This document shows, in pieces, positions 28,534-46,927 of a DNA stretch of 64,000 nucleotides. The notes beneath the pieces are model-generated. The model made no database searches. It worked only from the letters and a program-made list of their open reading frames with translations, and was not told where the DNA came from. Source of the stretch: Pelagibacteraceae bacterium AG-325-J13 (GTDB taxonomy: Bacteria; Pseudomonadota; Alphaproteobacteria; Pelagibacterales; Pelagibacteraceae); contig QBYL01000001.1 of NCBI GenBank assembly GCA_003282835.1, positions 186,001 through 250,000 on the forward strand, given 5' to 3'. The position numbers and the translations under genes are program-made. How positions within the stretch are numbered: the first letter of the stretch is position 1; every line of letters starts with the position of its first letter.

Positions 28534-28995
28534 ATGTTTTTATCAAGTTACGAAAACAAACTAGACAAGAAAGGGAGAGTTTCAGTGCCTGCAACTTTTA
28601 GGTCACAATTAAATTCGATGGGCTACAACGGATTCATAACTTATCCCTCTTTTAATCATCTAGCTTTGGAGGCATGTTCTCAAGATAGAATTGAACTGCT
28701 TTCGGACACAATTGACTCATTAAATCCCTTTGAAGATAAAAGAGATTATTTTGCGACATCAGTTCTATCAGAAAGTGTAAATTTGCAATTCGATACTGAA
28801 GGCAGAATTTCACTAACTAAAAAATTACTAGATCACGCAAGAATTAAAAATAACATTTTATTTGTCGGTTTAGGAAAAACGTTTCAAATATGGGAGCCAA
28901 ATCAATTTGAAAAATTTAAAATTTTGGCGAGAAAAAATTCTTATAAAAATCGTTCAAATCTTAAATGGAACAATAAACAGAAAGGGGAGCAGTAA
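28534..28995 (+). CDS. mraZ: Transcriptional regulator MraZ
   Basis: DNA-binding regulator of the division and cell wall cluster. 153 aa with the two swapped-hairpin AbrB domains: 'NKLDKKGRVSVPATFRSQL' in type at residues 8-26 and 'LQFDTEGRISLTKKLLDHARI' at 85-105, each with the conserved DxxGR. Operator boxes lie 52-76 bases upstream of its start. Its stop overlaps the ftsZ start (TAATG), coupling the regulator directly to FtsZ instead of to rsmH as in most bacteria. Confidence 0.95.
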   Translation: MFLSSYENKLDKKGRVSVPATFRSQLNSMGYNGFITYPSFNHLALEACSQDRIELLSDTIDSLNPFEDKRDYFATSVLSESVNLQFDTEGRISLTKKLLDHARIKNNILFVGLGKTFQIWEPNQFEKFKILARKNSYKNRSNLKWNNKQKGEQ

Positions 28996-30488
28996 TGAGT
29001 ATAAATATTGGAGGTGGTGAACTAAAAGAATTGAAACCTAGAATTTTAGTTTTAGGTGTTGGTGGAGCAGGAGGTAATGCTATTAATGCGATGATAGATT
29101 CGGGCATGCAAGGTGTTGAGTTTGTTGCAGTTAATACTGATGCTCAAGATTTAAAGATGAGTAAAGCTCACGCAAAAATTCAAATTGGAATGAATTTAAC
29201 AAAAGGTTTAGGTGCTGGCGCTAAACATAATATTGGTCAAGCTGCAGCAGATGAGTCAATAGGTGAAATAGTAAACTACATGCAAGGAAGCAATATGATT
29301 TTTATAGCTGCAGGTATGGGTGGTGGAACTGGTACTGGCGCATCTCATGTAATTGCTAAAGCAGCGAAAGAATTAAATATTTTGACTGTAGGTGTGACTA
29401 CATTGCCATTCTCTTATGAAGGTCCTAAAAGAATGAGAAGAGCTTTAGAAGGTCTTGAAGCTTTGAAAAAATACTTAGACACAACAATAGTTGTCCCTAA
29501 TCAGAATCTTTTTAAAATAGCAAGTGAGTCAACAACTTTTGAAGAATCTTTTATTCTTTCTAATAACGTTTTGAAACATGGCGTTCAAAGTGTGACAGAT
29601 CTCATGGTAAGACCAGGAATGATTAATTTAGATTTTGCTGATGTAGAGACTGTAATGAGTTCAATGGGCAAAGCAATGATGGGAACAGGAGAAGCAGAAG
29701 GAGAAAACAGAGCTATGGCAGCTACGGAGATGGCATTGAACAATCCTTTAATTGATGAATATTCTCTTAAAGGTGCTAAGGGATTACTTATTAATATTAC
29801 CGGAGGATCTGACCTTACTTTATTTGAAGTTGATCAAACTGTTCAAAAAGTAAGAGATGAGGTAGATACAGATGCAGAATTAATTTTTGGAGCAATTAAA
29901 GATGACAGTATGAACGGGAAAATGCGTGTATCCATAGTAGCTACTGCATTAGATGGACATAAACCAGAAACTAAAACGGTATTAAACATGGTTTCGAGAT
30001 TACATAATAGAAATAATATGCAATCAGATAATTTGTTCTCACACAATCCAAAAATAGAGGGCGGGACTTATAATTCTATTGATGGAGCTACCGCATTGAA
30101 ATTAGATGAGAGTTTTGAAATTAAGGAAGATGAAAAAAACTCATCGATCAGTACAATTGAGCAAAATAATCCAAGTATAGTTAACAATGAAAATTTTAAT
30201 GACCAGACAGATGTTGTTATACCTAGTGGTGTATCGATGGAAAATGCTTCATACATGGAAGAAAGCATTCAGCCAAAAATATCGGATACAGAAGAGACTA
30301 ATTCTAATATCTCCAATAACCTCGATGGGGAATATACACCTAAACTTTTTTCTGAAGATGTAAAGAATCCTGCAGAAAATCATTTGGAAGAAAATGACAA
30401 TACACAAACAGATAAGCTTTTTGATCAAGATCTAAATGAAGAGGAAGATTTTGAAATTCCAGCTTTTCTAAGAAAACAAAAATTTTAA
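28995..30488 (+). CDS. ftsZ: Cell division protein FtsZ
   Basis: Tubulin-like GTPase that forms the division ring. 497 aa. GTP site: 'LGVGGAGGNAINAMI' near residue 20, the tubulin signature 'AGMGGGTGTGASH' near 107, T7 loop 'NLDFADVETVM' near 212. A variable acidic linker of about 150 residues follows and ends in the conserved C-terminal peptide 'FEIPAFLRKQKF' that binds FtsA and other partners. A strong Shine-Dalgarno (AAAGGGGAG) precedes the start. It is second in the operon, between mraZ and rsmH; the usual place is after ftsA. Confidence 0.98.
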   Translation: MSINIGGGELKELKPRILVLGVGGAGGNAINAMIDSGMQGVEFVAVNTDAQDLKMSKAHAKIQIGMNLTKGLGAGAKHNIGQAAADESIGEIVNYMQGSNMIFIAAGMGGGTGTGASHVIAKAAKELNILTVGVTTLPFSYEGPKRMRRALEGLEALKKYLDTTIVVPNQNLFKIASESTTFEESFILSNNVLKHGVQSVTDLMVRPGMINLDFADVETVMSSMGKAMMGTGEAEGENRAMAATEMALNNPLIDEYSLKGAKGLLINITGGSDLTLFEVDQTVQKVRDEVDTDAELIFGAIKDDSMNGKMRVSIVATALDGHKPETKTVLNMVSRLHNRNNMQSDNLFSHNPKIEGGTYNSIDGATALKLDESFEIKEDEKNSSISTIEQNNPSIVNNENFNDQTDVVIPSGVSMENASYMEESIQPKISDTEETNSNISNNLDGEYTPKLFSEDVKNPAENHLEENDNTQTDKLFDQDLNEEEDFEIPAFLRKQKF

Positions 30489-30507
30489 ATGGCTAAATTA
30501 TTTTATT

Positions 30508-31521
30508 ATGACCAATTCATTAGCATCACTGGAGTCTCCTCACTTTCCGGTGATGTTAGATGAGGTAATTTCGATCTGTTCTCCAAAAAATGGAGGCACG
30601 TTTGTAGATTGTACTTTTGGTGGAGGAGGATATTCAAAAACAATATTAAAATACTCAGGCACAAAAGTTATTGCTCTTGATAGAGATAAATTTGTTTTAA
30701 ATATAAGTAAAATTTTAGAAGAAAAATATCCTAGTCGCTTTTCTTTCCATAAAAGAAAATTTAGTGAAGTAGATAGGATAGTTTCAGAAAAAAAAGTTGA
30801 TGCAGTAATTTTTGATTTAGGATTATCTTCTATACAGTTAAATAATTTATCTAGAGGATTTTCATTTCACTCTAAAGAAAACTTGGACATGTCAATGGGC
30901 TTATCAACTCGTTCAGCAGAGTCAGTTGTAAATAATTTTAGTGAAGAAGACTTAAAAAAAATTATTAAGATTTTAGGTGAGGAAAAAGAAGCAGCAAGAA
31001 TAGCCAAAAATATAGTTAAGTTTCGAAATATAGAAAAAATTACAAAAGTTAATCAACTAGTAGAAATTATAAATAGAAGTAAAAAAAAAAATCACAAAAA
31101 AAAAATTAATCCTAGTACACAAACTTTTCAAGCGTTGAGAATTTTTGTAAATACAGAAATTACTGAATTAATCAAAGGCATTACAAATGCAACAAAAATT
31201 TTAAAACCAGGTGGAAAAATTCTTATTATAAGCTTTCATTCAATCGAGGATAAAATAATTAAATTTTTTTTTAAAAATTTTTCTCTCAACAGGTCAAGAC
31301 CTTCTAGGTACATCCCTGAAACTAATGATAAAAATATTTATTTATTTACTGAATATAAAAATAAAATACTAAAGCCTACTAAATTAGAGATTAGTAAAAA
31401 TTTTCCATCAAGATCGGCAAAATTACGATACGCTATAAGAAATAAAAACAACTACATATATCCCTCAGAATTATTAAAAAAATTTAAAAAATATTTAGAT
31501 ATAGAGGAAATACATGCATAG
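30508..31521 (+). CDS. rsmH: 16S rRNA m4C1402 methyltransferase
   Basis: RsmH (MraW) methylates N4 of C1402 in 16S rRNA. 337 aa. 'HFPVMLDEVISIC' near residue 12, SAM motif 'VDCTFGGGGYSKTIL' near 33, 'DAVIFDLGLSSIQLN' near 97, 'FQALRIFVNTEI' near 205 and 'ISFHSIEDKIIK' near 238 are diagnostic. The ATG lies 19 bases after ftsZ and the end overlaps ftsL by 8 bases. Confidence 0.97.
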   Translation: MTNSLASLESPHFPVMLDEVISICSPKNGGTFVDCTFGGGGYSKTILKYSGTKVIALDRDKFVLNISKILEEKYPSRFSFHKRKFSEVDRIVSEKKVDAVIFDLGLSSIQLNNLSRGFSFHSKENLDMSMGLSTRSAESVVNNFSEEDLKKIIKILGEEKEAARIAKNIVKFRNIEKITKVNQLVEIINRSKKKNHKKKINPSTQTFQALRIFVNTEITELIKGITNATKILKPGGKILIISFHSIEDKIIKFFFKNFSLNRSRPSRYIPETNDKNIYLFTEYKNKILKPTKLEISKNFPSRSAKLRYAIRNKNNYIYPSELLKKFKKYLDIEEIHA

Positions 31522-31846: not shown

Positions 31847-33548
31847 GAGAGAAAATATAAATCAAACAAGTTTTTATTTTGAGGATTATTTAGAAACCAA
31901 TCAAAAGAAGAAGGAAGATAAAAATTTTAATATTGTTCAAGATAGAATTTATCTTTTATTCTTTTTATTTTTGTCTTTAATTATTATTTTTTCAATAAAG
32001 ATTACTCTGGTTTCTTTAAAAACACCAAAATTAAGTATTTTAGAAAATAATTCTATTTTTCAAAAATCTTTACGTCGAGATATAGTAGATCGTAATGGCA
32101 TTTTAGTATCTAGAAATATAAAATCTTTTCACGCAGCAGTAAATCCCAAATTGATAAAAGATAAAGAAAACTTTTTAATTAAAATTAGAATAAATTTTCC
32201 AGATTTACTGATAGATAAGATTGAAAAAAAACTTAATGAGGGCAAGTATTTTTATATTAAAAAAAGACTCGACCAAAGTGATAAAGAAAAACTTTGGTCC
32301 TTAGGTGAAAAGGGATTAATTTTTGAACCTTTCCAATCTAGAATTTATACTCATGCAAATTTATACAGTCATATTTTAGGTCAAGTAGATTATGATAACT
32401 ATGGTGTTTCTGGGGTAGAAAAATATTTTGATAAAGAGTTAAAAAATTTACAAATAATGGACACGCCCCTTAAACTAACTTTAGATACAAATATTCAACA
32501 TATTATAGATGAAGAATTAAATGGAGCGCTGAAAACTTTTAAATCTACAGGGGCTGCTGCATTACTTATGAATATTCATAATGGTGAGATTTTATCTCTT
32601 TCATCGCTACCTAATTATAATATTAATATTAGAGAAAATATTATAGATAAAAAATTTACTAATAAAATCACTAAGGGAGTTTACGAGTTAGGATCTATAT
32701 TTAAAACTTTTACAATAGCGCTAGCGCTTGAAAAAAAACTTGTCACACCTAAAACGGTTATTACAGATATTCCTAGAAAAATAAAATGCTCAGTTCATCA
32801 AATTTCAGATGTAAAAGAATTTCCAAAAAATTTGTCTGTTGAAGATATTCTTATAAGATCTTCTAATATTGGTACATTAATGTTGGCACAAAAAATTGGA
32901 GAAAATGACTATAAGGAATTTATAAAAAAAACAAATCTATTAAATGCACCCAATTTACAAATTGAGGAAATCGGTAAACCTTTAAATTTTACTTGGAATA
33001 AATGCAAGTTAGAAACAATTTCATTTGGGCATGGTATAGCAGTCACACCTCTCCAAGCCGCATCAACTTACGCAGCTATTTCAAATGGAGGTTATTTAAT
33101 TCAACCCACTTTAATTGCTAATGAGGGCGAACAGAAAAAAATCAAAATCATTTCTGAGAGTACTAGCAAACAAATTAATAAAATTTTAAGAAAAGTAGTT
33201 ACAGACAAAGAGGGTACTGCAAGCTTAGCAGATATTTATGGTTATGATGTAGGAGGTAAGACAGGCACTTCACAAATGTATAATGACCATAATCAAAACC
33301 TGAATACATTTATTTCAATTTTTCCCTCAAAAAAACCAAAATATGTACTACTCGTTATGTTAGAAAATCCAAAGGTAGCAAGCAATTTAATTTATAATTA
33401 TAGAGGTATGAGGATTAAAGGAACTAGAAATGAAGCTGGGTGGAACTCTGTTTATATATCCGGCAAAATTATAAAAAAAATTGGACCTATTTTAGCCATA
33501 AAAAACGACGAATTTTATAACAAAAATGTTGTTAAAAAATTTAATTAA
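31827..33548 (+). CDS. ftsI: Septal peptidoglycan transpeptidase FtsI (PBP3)
   Basis: Class B penicillin-binding protein that crosslinks septal peptidoglycan with FtsW. 573 aa. One membrane segment near residues 46-66, a pedestal domain ('RRDIVDRNGILVSRN' near 88), and a transpeptidase domain. The domain has SxxK in 'GSIFKTFTIA' near 289, SxN in 'RSSNIGTLM' and KTG in 'VGGKTGTSQMY' near 477. It overlaps ftsL at the start and murEF at the end (23 bases). Confidence 0.95.
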   Translation: MRKKQSKRENINQTSFYFEDYLETNQKKKEDKNFNIVQDRIYLLFFLFLSLIIIFSIKITLVSLKTPKLSILENNSIFQKSLRRDIVDRNGILVSRNIKSFHAAVNPKLIKDKENFLIKIRINFPDLLIDKIEKKLNEGKYFYIKKRLDQSDKEKLWSLGEKGLIFEPFQSRIYTHANLYSHILGQVDYDNYGVSGVEKYFDKELKNLQIMDTPLKLTLDTNIQHIIDEELNGALKTFKSTGAAALLMNIHNGEILSLSSLPNYNINIRENIIDKKFTNKITKGVYELGSIFKTFTIALALEKKLVTPKTVITDIPRKIKCSVHQISDVKEFPKNLSVEDILIRSSNIGTLMLAQKIGENDYKEFIKKTNLLNAPNLQIEEIGKPLNFTWNKCKLETISFGHGIAVTPLQAASTYAAISNGGYLIQPTLIANEGEQKKIKIISESTSKQINKILRKVVTDKEGTASLADIYGYDVGGKTGTSQMYNDHNQNLNTFISIFPSKKPKYVLLVMLENPKVASNLIYNYRGMRIKGTRNEAGWNSVYISGKIIKKIGPILAIKNDEFYNKNVVKKFN

Positions 33549-36288
33549 AAAAATTCCAAATAATTTTAAAAATTTAGATGTTCGGGGAGCAGCACTAAAT
33601 AGCAAAGAAGTTAAAAAAGGATTTATTTTTTTTGCATTAAAAGGCAGCAAACTCAACGGTGAACATTATATACAAGATGCGATTAATCATGGAGCAATTG
33701 TTATTGTTTGTTCTAAAGCATGTAAATTCAAAAGTGATAAAATACTTATAATAAAAACGAGTAATGTACGAGAGTATTTGTCAAATTTTTTGAAAAAATT
33801 TTATAAATTTAAGCCAAAAAATATTATTGCAGTTACAGGCACTAACGGAAAAACATCTGTTGCAGAATTTTTTTATCAAATATTAAATTTAAATAATATT
33901 TCAGTTGCAACTATTGGTACATTCGGCATCAAAACTAGAAAAAAAAATTACAAAACTAATTTAACTTCTCCAGATATTGTAACCTTGCATAGAAATCTTG
34001 AAAAATTGAAAAAGGATAAAATTGATAATGTCATAATAGAGGCATCGAGTCATGGCTTAGATCAAAAAAGACTAGATGGTTTAAAAATTAAGATTGGTAT
34101 ATTTACAAACTTTAGCCAAGATCATCTAGATTATCATAAGACCATGAAAGATTATTTAAATGCTAAGCTCTCTCTCTTTAATCGAATTTTACCATCTGGA
34201 AGTTGTGTAATTACTGATAAGTCCTTGAAGGTTTATCAAAGATTGAAAAAAATTTGTAAAAATAAAAAACTAAAACTATTTAATATTAAAACGGATAAGA
34301 TTGATCTTATTAATACAAATTCCAAAATAATTGGAACATTTCAAACAAAAAATTTAGCTATGGCTTTATCTGCGATAAAGATATGTAACCTAAAAATTTC
34401 TAGCCCATTAAAATTAATGAAAAAAATAAAAAATGTTAATGGCAGATTAGAACTAGTAAAAACATTTTCAAACAATACAAAAGTATTTGTTGATTACGCG
34501 CATACACCTGATGCACTTAATGAAGTTTTGAAATCATTAAAAAAAAAATTTAATCAGAATATTATACTAGTATTTGGATGCGGGGGTGATAGAGATTTTA
34601 AAAAAAGACCACTTATGGCTAAAATTGCTAAAAAATTTTGTAAAGAAGTTTACGTAACAGATGACAACCCACGTTATGAAAATCCACAAAAAATTAGACT
34701 TCAAATTATAAAAAATTTAAGGGGAGTCAATTTTCATAATATTGGGAACAGATCAAAAGCAATTAAACAAGCGATTTTAAAATCAAGACCAAATGATATA
34801 ATTTTAGTAGCTGGAAAAGGGCATGAGAATACCCAAGATTACGGAAATAAAACTTATCTTATTTCAGATAAGAAGATAATTAAAAATATAAGATTTTATA
34901 AAAAGAGATTAAATTACAAGCAATTAAACTATAAGGTTAATTCTGAAATTTTGAATGAAATAACAAAAAACAAAAAAAATTATAAATTTGATGGATTAGC
35001 TATCGACTCCAGAGATATCAAAAAAGGAAATATTTTTTTAGCACATAAAGGTAAAAATAATGATGGAAATGATTTTATTTTTAAAGCAATCAAAAAAGGA
35101 GCAAGTTACGTTATCACAACAAAAAACAACAAAAAATTAAGTAAACAAATTATAAAAGTTGATAATCCAATAAGTTTTTTAAATAAATTCGCTAGTTTTA
35201 AAAGAGAAAAAAGTAAAGCTAAAATCCTAGCAATTACTGGAAGTGCCGGCAAAACATCTCTAAAAAATATGTTGAAAGATTTATTAAAAGAGCATGATTA
35301 TACTCATGCATCACCAAAATCCTTTAATAATCATTATGGAGTACCTTTAAGTGTAGCAAATCTTAATATGAGACATAAATTCGGAATATTTGAAGTAGGA
35401 ATGAGTAAGGCCGGTGAAATTGATAATTTATCTAAAATGATCAAACCTGATTTGGCAATCATTACAAATATTGCTGAAGCTCACATAGAAAATTTTAGAA
35501 GTGTAAAAGAAATTGCTAAAGCTAAAGGTGAAATAATTGATAATTTACAAAAAAATGGAACTATTATTTTAAATCGCGATAGTCAATACTTTGGGTATCT
35601 AAGTCATAAAGCTAAACAAAAAAAAATTAAGATTGTTACTTTCGGCAAGTCTAAGAATTCAGACATTAGACTAATTAAAATTAATTACAAAGATGAAAAA
35701 AAGAAATTAATTATATTGATAGAAGGCAAAGTCTTTAATTTAGAAGTAAATTTTATTAATGAATACAATATTCTTGCATCATTAGCTGTATTAAACGAAC
35801 TTAAGCTGGATTTACAAAACTTTAAAAAAGTATTTGAAAATTTTGAACCAACTGAAGGCAGAGGTAAGATTCATAGTATTAAAAGATATAATAAAAGATT
35901 TAAACTAATCGATGAAAGTTATAATGCTAATCCGTTATCAGTTAAAATTGCGATCAATAATTTTACAAAATTAAAAAAGAATAATTCAAAAAAGTATTTA
36001 CTATTAGGCGATATGCTTGAATTGGGTAAAAAATCTAAAATTTATCATAATGACATTTCAAAACTTATTAACAGATCTGACATTGATAAAGTTTTTATAA
36101 CAGGTTCTAAGACATTTTTTACCTATAAAAATCTTAAAAAAGATAAACAAGGAAATATTTTTCAGTATAATCAAGATGTAGATTTGATCTTAAAAAATAT
36201 AATCAGTAATAATGACTATTTAATGATAAAAGGATCTAATGCAACCGGCTTGAACCATATTAGTAATGCCATGATAAAAGGAATTTAA
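33526..36288 (+). CDS. murEF: Fused MurE-MurF ligase (UDP-MurNAc-tripeptide and -pentapeptide synthetase)
   Basis: One 920-aa reading frame with two complete Mur ligases. Residues 1-~455 are MurE: ATP motif 'AVTGTNGKTSVAEFFYQ' near 102, 'FTNFSQDHLDYHKTM' near 197 and 'DDNPRYENP' near 382, where DNPR marks meso-diaminopimelate as substrate. Residues ~480-920 are MurF: 'FDGLAIDSRDIKKGNIFLA', ATP motif 'AITGSAGKTSLKNML' near 570, 'NNHYGVPL', 'SYNANPLS' and 'LGDMLELG'. The linker near residue 455-480 is short and basic. murE and murF are normally separate adjacent genes; here no stop separates them. It overlaps ftsI by 23 bases and abuts mraY. Confidence 0.95.
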   Translation: MLLKNLIKKIPNNFKNLDVRGAALNSKEVKKGFIFFALKGSKLNGEHYIQDAINHGAIVIVCSKACKFKSDKILIIKTSNVREYLSNFLKKFYKFKPKNIIAVTGTNGKTSVAEFFYQILNLNNISVATIGTFGIKTRKKNYKTNLTSPDIVTLHRNLEKLKKDKIDNVIIEASSHGLDQKRLDGLKIKIGIFTNFSQDHLDYHKTMKDYLNAKLSLFNRILPSGSCVITDKSLKVYQRLKKICKNKKLKLFNIKTDKIDLINTNSKIIGTFQTKNLAMALSAIKICNLKISSPLKLMKKIKNVNGRLELVKTFSNNTKVFVDYAHTPDALNEVLKSLKKKFNQNIILVFGCGGDRDFKKRPLMAKIAKKFCKEVYVTDDNPRYENPQKIRLQIIKNLRGVNFHNIGNRSKAIKQAILKSRPNDIILVAGKGHENTQDYGNKTYLISDKKIIKNIRFYKKRLNYKQLNYKVNSEILNEITKNKKNYKFDGLAIDSRDIKKGNIFLAHKGKNNDGNDFIFKAIKKGASYVITTKNNKKLSKQIIKVDNPISFLNKFASFKREKSKAKILAITGSAGKTSLKNMLKDLLKEHDYTHASPKSFNNHYGVPLSVANLNMRHKFGIFEVGMSKAGEIDNLSKMIKPDLAIITNIAEAHIENFRSVKEIAKAKGEIIDNLQKNGTIILNRDSQYFGYLSHKAKQKKIKIVTFGKSKNSDIRLIKINYKDEKKKLIILIEGKVFNLEVNFINEYNILASLAVLNELKLDLQNFKKVFENFEPTEGRGKIHSIKRYNKRFKLIDESYNANPLSVKIAINNFTKLKKNNSKKYLLLGDMLELGKKSKIYHNDISKLINRSDIDKVFITGSKTFFTYKNLKKDKQGNIFQYNQDVDLILKNIISNNDYLMIKGSNATGLNHISNAMIKGI

Positions 36289-43157: not shown

Positions 43158-44076
43158 AAAAGTTTTGGTTGTTCTAGGCGGCACATCTGGTGAAAGAGCA
43201 GTGAGTCTTGAAAGTGGAAACTCCTGTGCAAAGGCCTTAAAAAAAAAAGGATATAAAGTATCAATTTTTGATCCTAAAAAAAAATTATTTAATTTAATTG
43301 ATAGAAATAAAGTCGATATAATATTTAATGCATTACACGGCAAAGATGGTGAAGATGGCATTGCTCAAAGTTATTTTGAATATTTAAGAATTCCATACAC
43401 ACATTCTGGCGTCATTAGCTCTCACAACGCTATGAATAAAGTAATTTCTAAAAAAATTTTTGAAATAAATAAGATTAAAACACCAAAATACTTTGTAATA
43501 AATAGAAAGAATTTTAACAAGAAAAATATCAATGTAACGATCAAAAGAAAAAAAATTAAGTTTCCTATAGTAGTTAAACCAATAAACGAAGGATCAAGTC
43601 TTGGTGTTTATATCTGTAAAAATCTAAATGAAATTAATAAATCAACGAAATCGCTTTATAAGAAATATGAGGAGATAATGTTTGAACCTTATATTGGAGG
43701 ACAGGAAATACAGGTTGCTGTAATAAATGGAAAACCTCTAGGTGCTATAGAGTTGAGACCAAAAAGAAAGTTTTATGATTATAAAGCAAAATATTCAAAA
43801 AAGGCTAAAACAGAACATATAATGCCAGCCAATTTGAAAAAAAATAGATATTCAGAAGTTTTAAAAATTGCAAAAAAAGCACACGATGCATTAGAATGCA
43901 AGGGTGTGACAAGATCAGATTTTAAGTTTTATAAAAACAAATTTTATCTTTTAGAGTTAAATACACAACCAGGCATGACTAGCTTATCTTTAGTGCCTGA
44001 AATTGCAAATTATAAAGGTATTAGTTTTGAAAATTTGGTTGAAAAAATATTATTAAATGCAAGTTTAAATAGATGA
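43147..44076 (+). CDS. ddl: D-alanine--D-alanine ligase
   Basis: ATP-grasp ligase that makes D-Ala-D-Ala for MurF. About 309 aa from the ATG at 43147, overlapping murB by 11 bases. 'VLGGTSGERAVSLESG' near residue 10, 'NALHGKDGEDG' near 62, 'VKPINEGSSLGVYIC' near 140, 'TRSDFKFYKNKFYLLELNTQPGMT' region near 258-282. The overall length matches DdlB. Ends in an ATGA overlap with ftsQ. Confidence 0.96.
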   Translation: MKNKKVLVVLGGTSGERAVSLESGNSCAKALKKKGYKVSIFDPKKKLFNLIDRNKVDIIFNALHGKDGEDGIAQSYFEYLRIPYTHSGVISSHNAMNKVISKKIFEINKIKTPKYFVINRKNFNKKNINVTIKRKKIKFPIVVKPINEGSSLGVYICKNLNEINKSTKSLYKKYEEIMFEPYIGGQEIQVAVINGKPLGAIELRPKRKFYDYKAKYSKKAKTEHIMPANLKKNRYSEVLKIAKKAHDALECKGVTRSDFKFYKNKFYLLELNTQPGMTSLSLVPEIANYKGISFENLVEKILLNASLNR

Positions 44077-44732
44077 AAAAATCATATGTTGGATTGATTG
44101 TAATTTTTTTTTTATTAACTACGTATAGTCCAAAATTTGACTTTCAATCTGGTATAAATTTTAACATAAAGAAAATTATAATTTTAGATAATGATATCCT
44201 TGATGATAGAGAGATCAAAAAAAGTTTAGTATTTTTATATGAAAAAAACTTATTTTTTTTAAATGAAGAAGATATTAAAAAAGCTCTTATAGACAAACCA
44301 TTTTTAGAAAGTTTTAGTTTAAAAAAGATTTATCCATTTACCATCAAACTAAATATTGAAGAAAAAAAACCAATTGCTATTTTACATATAAAAAAGCAAA
44401 AATTTTATATTTCCGATAAAGGAGATTTAATAAATTATAAAGAAACCGAAAGATTCGAAAAATTACCTAATGTGTTTGGAAATGGGAAAAATTTCTATTT
44501 ATTTTATAAAGATCTCCAAAATATAGATTTTCCAATAAAAACTGTAAAAAATTTTTATTTCTTCGAGTCAGGTAGATGGGATTTAGTTTTACGAGATAAA
44601 AAAATAATTAAGCTACCAAATAAAGATTATTTATTAAGCTTAGAAAATTTTATGCTTTCAAAAGAAAATAAAAGTTTTAGTAATTATAAGATATTTGACT
44701 ATAGAATTAAAAATCAACTAATTTTAAATTAG
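44073..44732 (+). CDS. ftsQ: Divergent FtsQ (POTRA) division protein
   Basis: A 219-aa bitopic protein: membrane segment at residues 5-18 and a periplasmic part with a POTRA-like domain ('FNIKKIIILDNDILDDREIKKSL', then 'FLESFSLKKIYPFTIKLNIEEKKPIAI' region) followed by the FtsQ beta-domain. FtsQ recruits FtsL/FtsB to the septum. It is short for the family (typically 250-300 aa), mainly at the N-terminus. The call rests on the POTRA pattern and the ddl-ftsQ-ftsA position. Confidence 0.82.
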   Translation: MKKSYVGLIVIFFLLTTYSPKFDFQSGINFNIKKIIILDNDILDDREIKKSLVFLYEKNLFFLNEEDIKKALIDKPFLESFSLKKIYPFTIKLNIEEKKPIAILHIKKQKFYISDKGDLINYKETERFEKLPNVFGNGKNFYLFYKDLQNIDFPIKTVKNFYFFESGRWDLVLRDKKIIKLPNKDYLLSLENFMLSKENKSFSNYKIFDYRIKNQLILN

Positions 44733-44735
44733 ACA

Positions 44736-45935
44736 ATGAAAACTAACACTTTCGATTTATTCGTAGAAATAAATGATAAAAACTTCATTTTTGTTGTTGG
44801 ATCATATGATGAAATACATAATCTAAGAATAATTGAAAAAAAAATTGTAGAAAATGAGTTCTTTAAAAAAAAGATTAAATCTGATTTACTAAATACTCAA
44901 CAGTTATTAAAAAATACTATTCAAAATCTAGAGGAAAAATTAGATTGTATTTTTAAAGAAGTAGTAGTCATCTTAGAAAATTTCGATTTTTCTTGTATCA
45001 ATATTTCAGGTTTTAAAAAACTTAATGGTTCACAAGTTTTAAGAGAAAATATTTCTTATATACTCAATTCATTGAAGTTAGCTATTACCGAAACTGAAAA
45101 AGAAGAAGCTATAATACATATATTTAATTCTCAAAGTTTATTGGACAGAACATCTTACGAAAACTTGCCTATCGGTCTTTATGGAAATTTTTTTCAACAC
45201 GAACTTAGTTTTTTTCTTATGAATAATCAAGAACTTAAAAAGATTAGAAAAGTTTTTGGTGTAAATAATTTAAAAATTAAAAAAATTTTAATTAAAGATT
45301 ATATTGAAGGGGTAAAATTGATTGATAAGAAAAAAAATGATGGAACCTTTTTTATGATTAAATTTAATAAAGATAATATAAATTTAATTTATTTTGAAAA
45401 ATCCTCTTTTAAGTATACACAAAATTTTAAATTTGGAACTAATTTAATTCTTAATGATATTGAAAAAGTTTGTGAAATAAGTCGAAGTACGATTGAAAAA
45501 ATTTTGCATGATAGATATTTTGAAAAAAAAGATTTTGAAGAAAATGAATTTTTAGAAGTAGAATATTTTAGAAATGAGAAATTTAAAAAGGTAAAAAAAC
45601 AGTTGATCGCAGATGTCTCGGTTGCAAGGATTGAAGAATTTATAAGTCTCATATTTAATAATAATAAAAATTTACAGTTATATAAAAAAGAAAATAATTT
45701 AATATATTTTTTAATAGAAGATCAAAATATAAAAAATAATTTTGATAATAATTTTAATTATCACTTTTCCAAAAAAATTCCGTCACAATCGTCATTAATA
45801 AATAGTTTTGATTTAGACACATTATTTATTAAAGCTGCAAATATTTCTATTTTTGGATGGAAAAAAGAAGCTGTTCCAATTATCCATACTAAGAAATCAT
45901 TTATAACAAGGATTTTTAAGTCTTTATTTGGGTAA
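44736..45935 (+). CDS. ftsA: Highly divergent FtsA-like protein lacking recognisable ATP-binding motifs
   Basis: A 399-aa gene in the ftsA position. FtsA is an actin-like protein that anchors FtsZ to the membrane. Residual similarity: 'CINISGFKKLNGSQVLRENI' near residues 88-107 resembles the IAG..I...G.V.I..I block, and 'FGTNLILNDIEKVCEI' near 230 resembles GG..IT.DIA. The Phosphate-1 motif (usual xxDIGTTK) reads VEINDKN. The Phosphate-2 motif (DIGGGTTD) reads KFNKDNIN, and the adenosine LTGG block is not found. The C-terminal amphipathic membrane helix is kept ('SFITRIFKSLFG'). Full length and in frame, so probably functional as an anchor without ATP binding; that is inference. Confidence 0.75.
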   Translation: MKTNTFDLFVEINDKNFIFVVGSYDEIHNLRIIEKKIVENEFFKKKIKSDLLNTQQLLKNTIQNLEEKLDCIFKEVVVILENFDFSCINISGFKKLNGSQVLRENISYILNSLKLAITETEKEEAIIHIFNSQSLLDRTSYENLPIGLYGNFFQHELSFFLMNNQELKKIRKVFGVNNLKIKKILIKDYIEGVKLIDKKKNDGTFFMIKFNKDNINLIYFEKSSFKYTQNFKFGTNLILNDIEKVCEISRSTIEKILHDRYFEKKDFEENEFLEVEYFRNEKFKKVKKQLIADVSVARIEEFISLIFNNNKNLQLYKKENNLIYFLIEDQNIKNNFDNNFNYHFSKKIPSQSSLINSFDLDTLFIKAANISIFGWKKEAVPIIHTKKSFITRIFKSLFG

Positions 45936-46000: not shown

Positions 46001-46927
46001 ATGTTAAATTTTAATCAAAAAACTTTAAAAGATACAATTAAGCTAAATGGAATAGGACTTCACAATGGTGTTAATGTTAACTTAACCATTAAACCAGCTA
46101 AAGAAAATTTCGGTATAAAGTTTTGTAGGATCGATATTGAAAAAAATAATTTGATTGAAGCAAACTATAAAAATGTAACCGAACCAATACTATGCACTAA
46201 GATTAAAAATAATAATGGTGTTACAGTTTCTACTGTAGAACATTTAATGGCTGCTTTTTTTGGTGAAGGTATTGATAATGCTTTAGTGGAAATAGATGCT
46301 GCAGAGGTACCAATATTGGATGGTTCAGCAATTGAATTTGTTGAAGCTATAAGATCTGTTGGAATAAAAGAACAAAATGAACAAAGAAAATTTATTTCAG
46401 TAAAAAAAAAAGTTGAGATTAAAGAAGGAAATAAGTTTATGTCTATAGAGCCCTTGAATAATGATTTAGTTGTAGACTTTGAAATAGTTTACAAAAATCC
46501 TTTAATCAGAACCAGAAGAAAAGAGTTCAAGTTAAGTGAAGGAAATTTAACTAATATTTATAATTCTAGAACATTCTGCTTATATGAAGATATTGATTTT
46601 ATCAAAAGTCAAGGTTTGGCAAAGGGCGGATCTCTGGAAAATGCTATCGTAGTGAGAGAAAATGAAATATTAAATGATGATGGGCTAAGAAATAGACATG
46701 AGTTTATTTACCATAAAATTTTAGATTGTTTGGGTGATCTAATGTTGACTGGATATAGGATTTTAGGATTCGTGAAAACTTCCCAAGGAGGTCATGCTTT
46801 AACAAACAAATTACTTTTAAAATTTTTATCAGACCAATCAAATTGGTCGCTTGACAGTTCAGAATCTGTCAAAAAAAAAAATCTTATCGAAGATTCTAAC
46901 AAAAAAACACTTTCAGCGAGTTTATAG
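46001..46927 (+). CDS. lpxC: UDP-3-O-acyl-N-acetylglucosamine deacetylase
   Basis: Committed step of lipid A synthesis; zinc enzyme and regulated drug target. 308 aa. 'GIGLHNGVNVNLTIKPA' near residue 16, zinc His in 'STVEHLMAAFFG' near 77, 'EVPILDGSAIEFVEAI' near 103, and 'RHEFIYHKILDCLGDLMLTG' near 231-250 with the second His and the Asp. A TATAAT sits at 45990-45995, only 5 bases before the ATG, with no good -35. It starts 65 bases after ftsA. Its presence shows a lipid A-bearing outer membrane. Confidence 0.96.
   Translation: MLNFNQKTLKDTIKLNGIGLHNGVNVNLTIKPAKENFGIKFCRIDIEKNNLIEANYKNVTEPILCTKIKNNNGVTVSTVEHLMAAFFGEGIDNALVEIDAAEVPILDGSAIEFVEAIRSVGIKEQNEQRKFISVKKKVEIKEGNKFMSIEPLNNDLVVDFEIVYKNPLIRTRRKEFKLSEGNLTNIYNSRTFCLYEDIDFIKSQGLAKGGSLENAIVVRENEILNDDGLRNRHEFIYHKILDCLGDLMLTGYRILGFVKTSQGGHALTNKLLLKFLSDQSNWSLDSSESVKKKNLIEDSNKKTLSASL

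Follow-up and report, generated by a model that had tools for sequence, protein, structure and literature searches.

A degenerate FtsA of a Pelagibacteraceae clade lacks the residues of the nucleotide site and may serve as an ATP-independent adaptor of FtsZ

Anchoring of the cell-division ring by FtsA usually depends on ATP, and which property of the protein is essential (ATP binding, hydrolysis or filaments) has been debated mainly on the basis of point mutations in a handful of model species. A gene of a Pelagibacteraceae bacterium, a member of the SAR11 group that is among the most abundant bacteria in the sea, raises the question of whether FtsZ can be tethered without the nucleotide. The gene lies in the window, i.e., the whole stretch of 64,000 nucleotides that was analysed, and the sequence-only reading took its product for an FtsA homologue that has lost all three nucleotide motifs, keeps its C-terminal membrane helix and may be an ATP-independent anchor for FtsZ.

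The open reading frame is present as claimed. Its product matches the FtsA family model TIGR01174 with an E-value of 4.3e-26, at 91.9 bits, which is under the curated cut-off of 175.85; at E <= 1e-3, the model matches all 60 orthologues scanned. The FtsA chains 7q6d, 7q6g and 7q6f are the sole confident sequence matches of the window protein among solved structures. An AlphaFold2 model of the protein, built on 60 orthologues, has a mean pLDDT of 81.6 and a pTM of 0.82, with low pLDDT over the final 20 residues and at residues 144-150, which belong to the IC domain. The 17 top PDB chains retrieved by Foldseek all belong to FtsA entries (three carry no more than the title “cell division protein”) with TM-scores of about 0.5-0.6, and the 11 top entries in VIA-align are all FtsA, with Z from 19.9 to 21.7 and an rmsd of 4.9-6.0 A across 340-357 residues; PilM comes next. 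Superposition of the whole predicted protein on FtsA is loose (TM about 0.6 at the same rmsd). The SHS2_FTSA model matches 56 of the 60 orthologues at E <= 1 and the window protein at an E-value of 0.056, under its cut-off. The predicted fold is that of FtsA with its SHS2/IC domain (Z about 21), and not one unrelated to actin, which would have refuted the assignment. The amphipathic membrane helix at the C-terminus was also recovered, in the sequence and as a predicted helix of low confidence at residues 389-398, without membrane-binding data. On the strength of the family match, the confident matches to solved structures and the predicted fold, the window protein is an FtsA by descent and fold and, by its sequence, not an actin-type nucleotide binder. 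Directly in front of the membrane helix, at residues 374-381 (window 45855-45878), there is a Gly-Trp-x-x-Glu-Ala-x-Pro stretch, in which Gly374 and Trp375 do not vary among the 109 sequences compared.

The features of the locus are collected in Table 1.

Table 1. Features of the window discussed in the text. Residue numbers are those of the window protein unless E. coli is named.
Feature	Position	Strand	Remark
Degenerate ftsA, 399 aa, ATG start	44736..45935	+	between ftsQ and lpxC
ftsQ	44073..44732	+	upstream neighbour of ftsA
lpxC	46001..46927	+	downstream neighbour; recognised from its own sequence; synteny marker
ftsZ	28995..30488	+	between ORFs recognised as mraZ and rsmH
FtsZ C-terminal peptide, EDFEIPAFLRKQKF	30444..30485	+	conserved
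Phosphate-1 equivalent VEINDKN, residues 10-16	44763..44783	+	Gly and Ser/Thr gone, acid Glu11 kept; alignment to E. coli FtsA
Glu11 (E. coli Glu14)	44766..44768	+	proposed ion-pair partner; Glu in 97/109
IC (SHS2) domain, limits approximate	44979..45209	+	strongly conserved within genus
Lys187 (E. coli Ala188)	45294..45296	+	new Lys at old metal site; Lys 100/109, Arg 3/109
Phosphate-2 equivalent KFNKDNIN, residues 209-216	45360..45383	+	Asp and Gly gone; alignment to E. coli FtsA
Helix carrying Arg298 and Glu301 (E. coli Arg300, Glu303)	45597..45659	+	both kept in 51/51 and 14/14
Adenosine-motif equivalent, residues 322-330	45699..45725	+	Gly-Gly gone; alignment to E. coli FtsA
C-terminal amphipathic helix, KKSFITRIFKSLFG	45891..45932	+	alignment, conservation, predicted helix 389-398 (low pLDDT)

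In the family comparison, the window's genus is labelled g1 and Pelagibacter proper g4. The gene order around ftsA is constant: ftsQ is upstream and lpxC downstream at all 51 g1-labelled loci (the window's own locus being counted twice), and lpxC, not ftsZ, is found 3′ of ftsA at 109 of the 110 family loci, the remaining locus stopping at a contig end. The ftsZ gene of the window is found elsewhere, between the ORFs recognised as mraZ and rsmH (28534-31521). We considered whether loss of the ATP site is linked to the relocation of ftsZ and rejected this, since genera that keep the site also have lpxC after ftsA. The window further contains a single 920-aa ORF with two tandem Mur ligase modules (33526-36288), each Mur ligase domain being matched in two stretches; it is likely a MurE-MurF fusion.

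Alignment with E. coli FtsA reveals VEINDKN in place of LEIGTAK at phosphate-1, MIKFNKDNIN in place of VVDIGGGTMD at phosphate-2 and IYFLIEDQN in place of IVLTGGAAQ at the adenosine motif. The claim that all three motifs are replaced holds for the Gly and Ser of phosphate-1, the Asp and Gly of phosphate-2 and the adenosine Gly-Gly, but not for the phosphate-1 acid (E. coli Glu14), which stays as Glu11. The pattern extends to 51 sequences of the window's genus and 14 of its sister genus: the adenosine Gly336 is kept in 0/65 and the phosphate-1 Gly16 in 2/64, and the phosphate-1 acid in 58/64, which makes it the best-retained residue of the site. Of the 65 sequences, 51 have none of the three phosphate/adenosine glycines and the other 14 keep at most one; a Ser or Thr is found at 215/216 in 57. 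By this sequence comparison, the window protein is without actin-type nucleotide motifs.

For comparison with other bacteria, five key residues (acid14, G16, acid210, G212 and G336) were scored in a single alignment of 179 FtsA sequences. FtsA alignments left out L113, which is identical to the window, and L195, whose genome is shared with L084; L103, a contig in a g9-labelled genome with 6% contamination, was counted as g1. All five residues are present in each of 30 high-scoring FtsA sequences of other alphaproteobacteria and in 8 of 13 low-scoring ones, the other five keeping one to four. In the window's genus, three residues are kept in one sequence and two or fewer in the remaining 50 of 51; two or fewer are likewise kept in 14/14 of the sister genus (one sequence being without its N-terminus). 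Elsewhere in the family, five of five are found in g7, g9 and g12 (13/13), in g6, g10 and g11 (5/5) and in 10 of 12 sequences of g5, where the remaining two are shortened frames. Phosphate-2 of the site-keeping members mostly reads D-x-G-x-x-K-T/S instead of D-x-G-G-G-T. Partly eroded genera are g3 (all five residues in 5/9) and g4 (3/5), together with g8, whose single sequence (L068, genome G068) keeps one of five; it falls outside the window clade in both the FtsA and the FtsZ tree, with a weakly supported placement. The window's genus and its sister genus group together with support of 0.987 in the FtsA tree and 0.995 in the FtsZ tree, so one loss suffices for both.

Erosion is also seen farther away. 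In a second family of the order (L196-L198 and L200-L221), FtsA is without Gly16 (mostly Arg) and without Gly212 in 24 of 25 sequences each and keeps the phosphate-2 acid and the adenosine Gly in 25/25, which is a separate partial erosion of the nucleotide site. In two small alphaproteobacterial genomes, G256 and G381, with contigs of some 0.6 Mb, FtsA (L257 and L258) retains little of the nucleotide motifs and is without the Arg/Glu pair at the FtsZ-contact positions as well.

What remains conserved in the window clade are the parts expected to face partners. The equivalents of E. coli Arg300 and Glu303, which we take to be contacts for the FtsZ tail, are present in all 65 sequences. Mean column identity within the window's genus is 0.73 in the IC domain and 0.73 in the FtsZ helix, compared with 0.57 for the protein and 0.51-0.53 for the three motif regions; in four site-keeping genera, the motif regions reach 0.76-0.84 vs. 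a protein mean of 0.60. When only those columns were considered whose conservation in canonical FtsA reaches 80%, no motif-specific loss was detected (2/17 motif columns kept vs. 23/134 others, P 0.74). As judged from these alignments, the protein of the window clade has diverged everywhere, and it is within-group conservation only that separates motif loss from general drift. The retention of the FtsA-binding tail of FtsZ, also claimed earlier, was borne out: the window FtsZ ends in EDFEIPAFLRKQKF, and the tail is kept in 51/51 sequences read, 14 from the window's genus and 12 from its sister genus (99 of the 117 family genomes gave an FtsZ match). The FtsZ tail also binds other proteins. SepF and ZipA were found in 0/26 genomes of the genus, four of them at least 90% complete, with models that matched 7 and 1 of 14 controls, respectively.

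The degenerate gene is regularly retained. A profile search in relatives, proposed as a check, detected ftsA in 116 of 169 genomes of the genus, with no internal stop among those listed, and the degenerate form in all 14 genomes with a completeness of 90% or more, the copy of G078 being cut by a contig end. The dN/dS of close pairs is 0.05-0.34 (25 of 37 pairs). Judged by these sequence data, the window gene is open and under selection, and we rejected a pseudogene or an assembly error on account of the 14 near-complete genomes, the syntenic locus and dN/dS well below 1. A better FtsA elsewhere, which would have refuted the proposal, did not turn up: in the source genome (assembly 80.8% complete), the one other FtsA-family match listed is an actin homologue recognised as MreB, and no second FtsA was found. 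FtsA above the TIGR01174 cut-off was found in 0/21 genomes of the genus.

The retained acid has a possible partner. In E. coli FtsA, Glu14, Ser84, Ala188, Asp210 and Tyr375 lie within 2-8 A of Mg2+ (PMC10213515). The residue at the position of Ala188 in the window protein is Lys187. We examined 109 distinct sequences of the two genera, those identical over most of their length having been dropped beforehand. Positions 11 and 187 are Glu/Lys in 93 of them, an acid with Lys or Arg in 97 and swapped (Lys/Asp) in 2; Ile12 is, as Glu11 and Lys187 are, near-invariant while the ATP motifs drift. When charge covariation is considered, position 187 is the top-ranking partner of 11, and 11 is the second-ranking partner of 187; with all letters, the ranks are third and first. 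Among all 79003 pairs, 11-187 ranks 383 (charge) and 1557 (all letters), which is good but not outstanding. The coupled acid/Lys changes are confined to one subclade of seven and so amount to roughly one episode, and uncompensated single changes (G/K, I/K, V/K and E/S) are also seen. A Glu11-Lys187 ion pair probably holds the old Mg2+ site, an inference made without coordinates for the distance. In favour of the pair, FtsA(E14R), into which a positive charge is introduced, binds phospholipid/membrane without ATP (PMC10213515). Against an ATP-free FtsA, the same work reports that ATP promotes polymerisation of E. coli FtsA, that E14R does not polymerise, and that E14R, S84L, A188V and D210A do not complement in E. 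coli (PMC10213515).

With a probability of about 0.7, we consider the window gene to encode a working nucleotide-free FtsA, an adaptor between FtsZ and the membrane; that it does not bind ATP, that it binds and tethers FtsZ, and that an ion pair locks it are inferred. The ATP-independent anchor suggested earlier is supported to this extent, being the natural reading of a protein whose site residues are gone and whose FtsZ tail partner, membrane helix and IC domain are conserved. The sequences establish that the loss is clade-wide, that the other parts are conserved, that the frame is open and under selection, and that acid and Lys go together as described; “ATP-independent” goes beyond them, there being no binding data, and leaves room for some remaining or altered ligand. 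The window FtsA would keep the two-domain actin fold, the IC domain, the Arg/Glu helix and the membrane helix, and would act as a constitutive adaptor, with the FtsZ tail on one side and the membrane helix on the other, without a nucleotide cycle. The IC domain would contact division partners, i.e., other divisome proteins, and provide lateral self-contact. We propose a locked, ATP-free tether because the phosphate-1 acid stays and is paired with a near-invariant Lys at the Mg2+ site: the ion pair may fix the cleft in the membrane-binding state, the built-in positive charge substituting for Mg-ATP and further changes compensating for what E14R misses in E. coli.

The strongest rival, still unlikely, is that this is a fast-evolving FtsA that binds ATP or another nucleotide through other residues, its motifs having changed beyond recognition. 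Divergence is indeed global across the protein, some ligand site may remain since the phosphate-1 acid and the Ser/Thr at 215/216 are mostly kept, and the partly changed sites of the second family of the order, with their phosphate-2 acid and adenosine Gly intact, indicate that partial change is tolerated. However, no sequence of the clade keeps more than one of the three glycines, the motif regions drift within the genus, which is not expected of a binding site, and a Lys sits at the metal position.

Pelagibacter presents a further reduction. In many g4 genomes, family searches gave MreB-range matches only. A search model made from four full-length g4 FtsA sequences matched 13 of 14 genomes tried, G086 included; in six, the match came in two pieces, at about model positions 1-190 and 340-387. 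Ten of the 14 genomes have frames of 222-245 aa, all between ftsQ and lpxC, four of them in single-contig genomes (G063, G077, G095 and G120). All ten aligned mini-FtsA sequences are without about E. coli residues 195-369, i.e., phosphate-2, the adenosine motif and the FtsZ-binding helix, a stretch taken to be actin domain II. Profile comparison of their N-terminal part gave a probability of 99.8 with full g4 FtsA and of 98.8 (E 8e-17, window residues 5-191) with the window clade. TIGR01174 matches seven of the ten at E <= 1 (best 6e-13), and the Pfam SHS2_FTSA cut-off is reached by one of five mini forms scanned.

A mini-FtsA model was compared with 217 g4 genomes of 85% completeness or more and matched 192 of them, full-length forms included. 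The best 150 of these 192 matches comprise 108 complete mini forms (220-248 aa), 20 full-length forms (370-395 aa), 19 with the 3′ part only and 3 others. The 108/217 is a lower bound, and the figure for full forms is too low, as full-length sequences score lower on the mini model. Mini-FtsA loci are L335-L343, L345 and L353-L382; at L344 (G134, a single-contig genome), stops interrupt even the mini frame, leaving a 175-aa stretch open. The FtsZ tail is kept in the mini-form genomes G077, G095, G120 and G149. No mini form was found in viral contigs.

In V. maritimus FtsA, filaments are joined lengthwise through IIA-IIB, whereas lateral contact and the binding of FtsN are functions of the IC domain (PMC7613929). 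With domain II missing, the mini form is therefore left with the IC domain and the membrane helix and is without a known filament or FtsZ surface. It may be that SAR11 is dismantling the actin machine of FtsA, the window clade by swapping Mg-ATP for a Glu-Lys pair and Pelagibacter, in many species, by cutting out domain II, so that a half-FtsA of IA part, IC domain and membrane helix remains, with neither a nucleotide cleft nor the longitudinal contact; we judge the chances of this to be even.

The Pelagibacter data bear on two further explanations. The pocket could have been taken over by another small ligand, e.g., a growth-signalling metabolite, sensed by the region of Glu11 and Lys187. The near-invariance of these residues and of Ile12 amid drifting ATP motifs would suit such a role, but no new strongly conserved cluster is seen at the tabulated phosphate-2 or adenosine positions, and at least 108 of 217 Pelagibacter genomes are without the second half of the cleft, which makes this very improbable. 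Least probable of all is a gene decaying towards loss, with FtsZ tethered otherwise, since, for all that domain II is missing in many Pelagibacter, that stops enter even the mini form in one single-contig genome and that other reduced genomes likewise show an eroded FtsA, the near-complete genomes of the window's genus all carry the gene, dN/dS is well below 1, the FtsZ-contact and IC residues are invariant, and neither SepF nor ZipA was found in the 26 genus genomes searched.

Should the nucleotide-free adaptor and the mini form each remain functional in division, one could dispense with ATP, with filaments of FtsA and even with its known contact to FtsZ, and the irreducible role of FtsA would be that of an IC domain held at the membrane. 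Natural FtsAs without an ATP site, and others without the filament-forming and FtsZ-binding domain, allow direct tests of what is essential in FtsA: whether such a protein can tether FtsZ in the absence of ATP, whether it assembles into filaments, and how the ring is kept in place where Pelagibacter has only half an FtsA. Annotation is also affected, as the window protein and the scanned mini forms score below the FtsA family cut-off. In the literature searched, with little coverage of subscription journals and mostly through titles and the beginnings of abstracts, we recognised no report of an FtsA orthologue without the ATP site or without domain II; the passages of PMC2877005 on Pelagibacter or FtsA treat neither form.

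Compared with canonical FtsA (E. coli, T. maritima and V. maritimus), the window protein has the fold, IC domain, Arg/Glu helix, amphipathic helix and FtsZ tail in common, and its locus shares the ftsQ-ftsA order of E. coli; it differs in the replaced site residues, the new Lys at the metal site and lpxC instead of ftsZ downstream. Arp7/Arp9 and Ssz1, actin/Hsp70-fold proteins that have lost ATPase function, are among the structural matches, but they are eukaryotic and their roles are unrelated. The cytoplasmic domain of EpsL/GspL from type II secretion (1yf5 and 4pht_Y among the structural matches) is an actin-like relative of FtsA and PilM that is not known to have a nucleotide site and that links a cytoplasmic machine to the membrane; unlike the window protein, it belongs to another machine, has only part of the fold and involves no FtsZ. 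An FtsA without ATPase activity is known already: D. radiodurans FtsA is reported to lack this activity, but it interacts with ATP and depends on the nucleotide to polymerise in an ordered manner (PMC4281207), whereas the window protein is without the binding residues.
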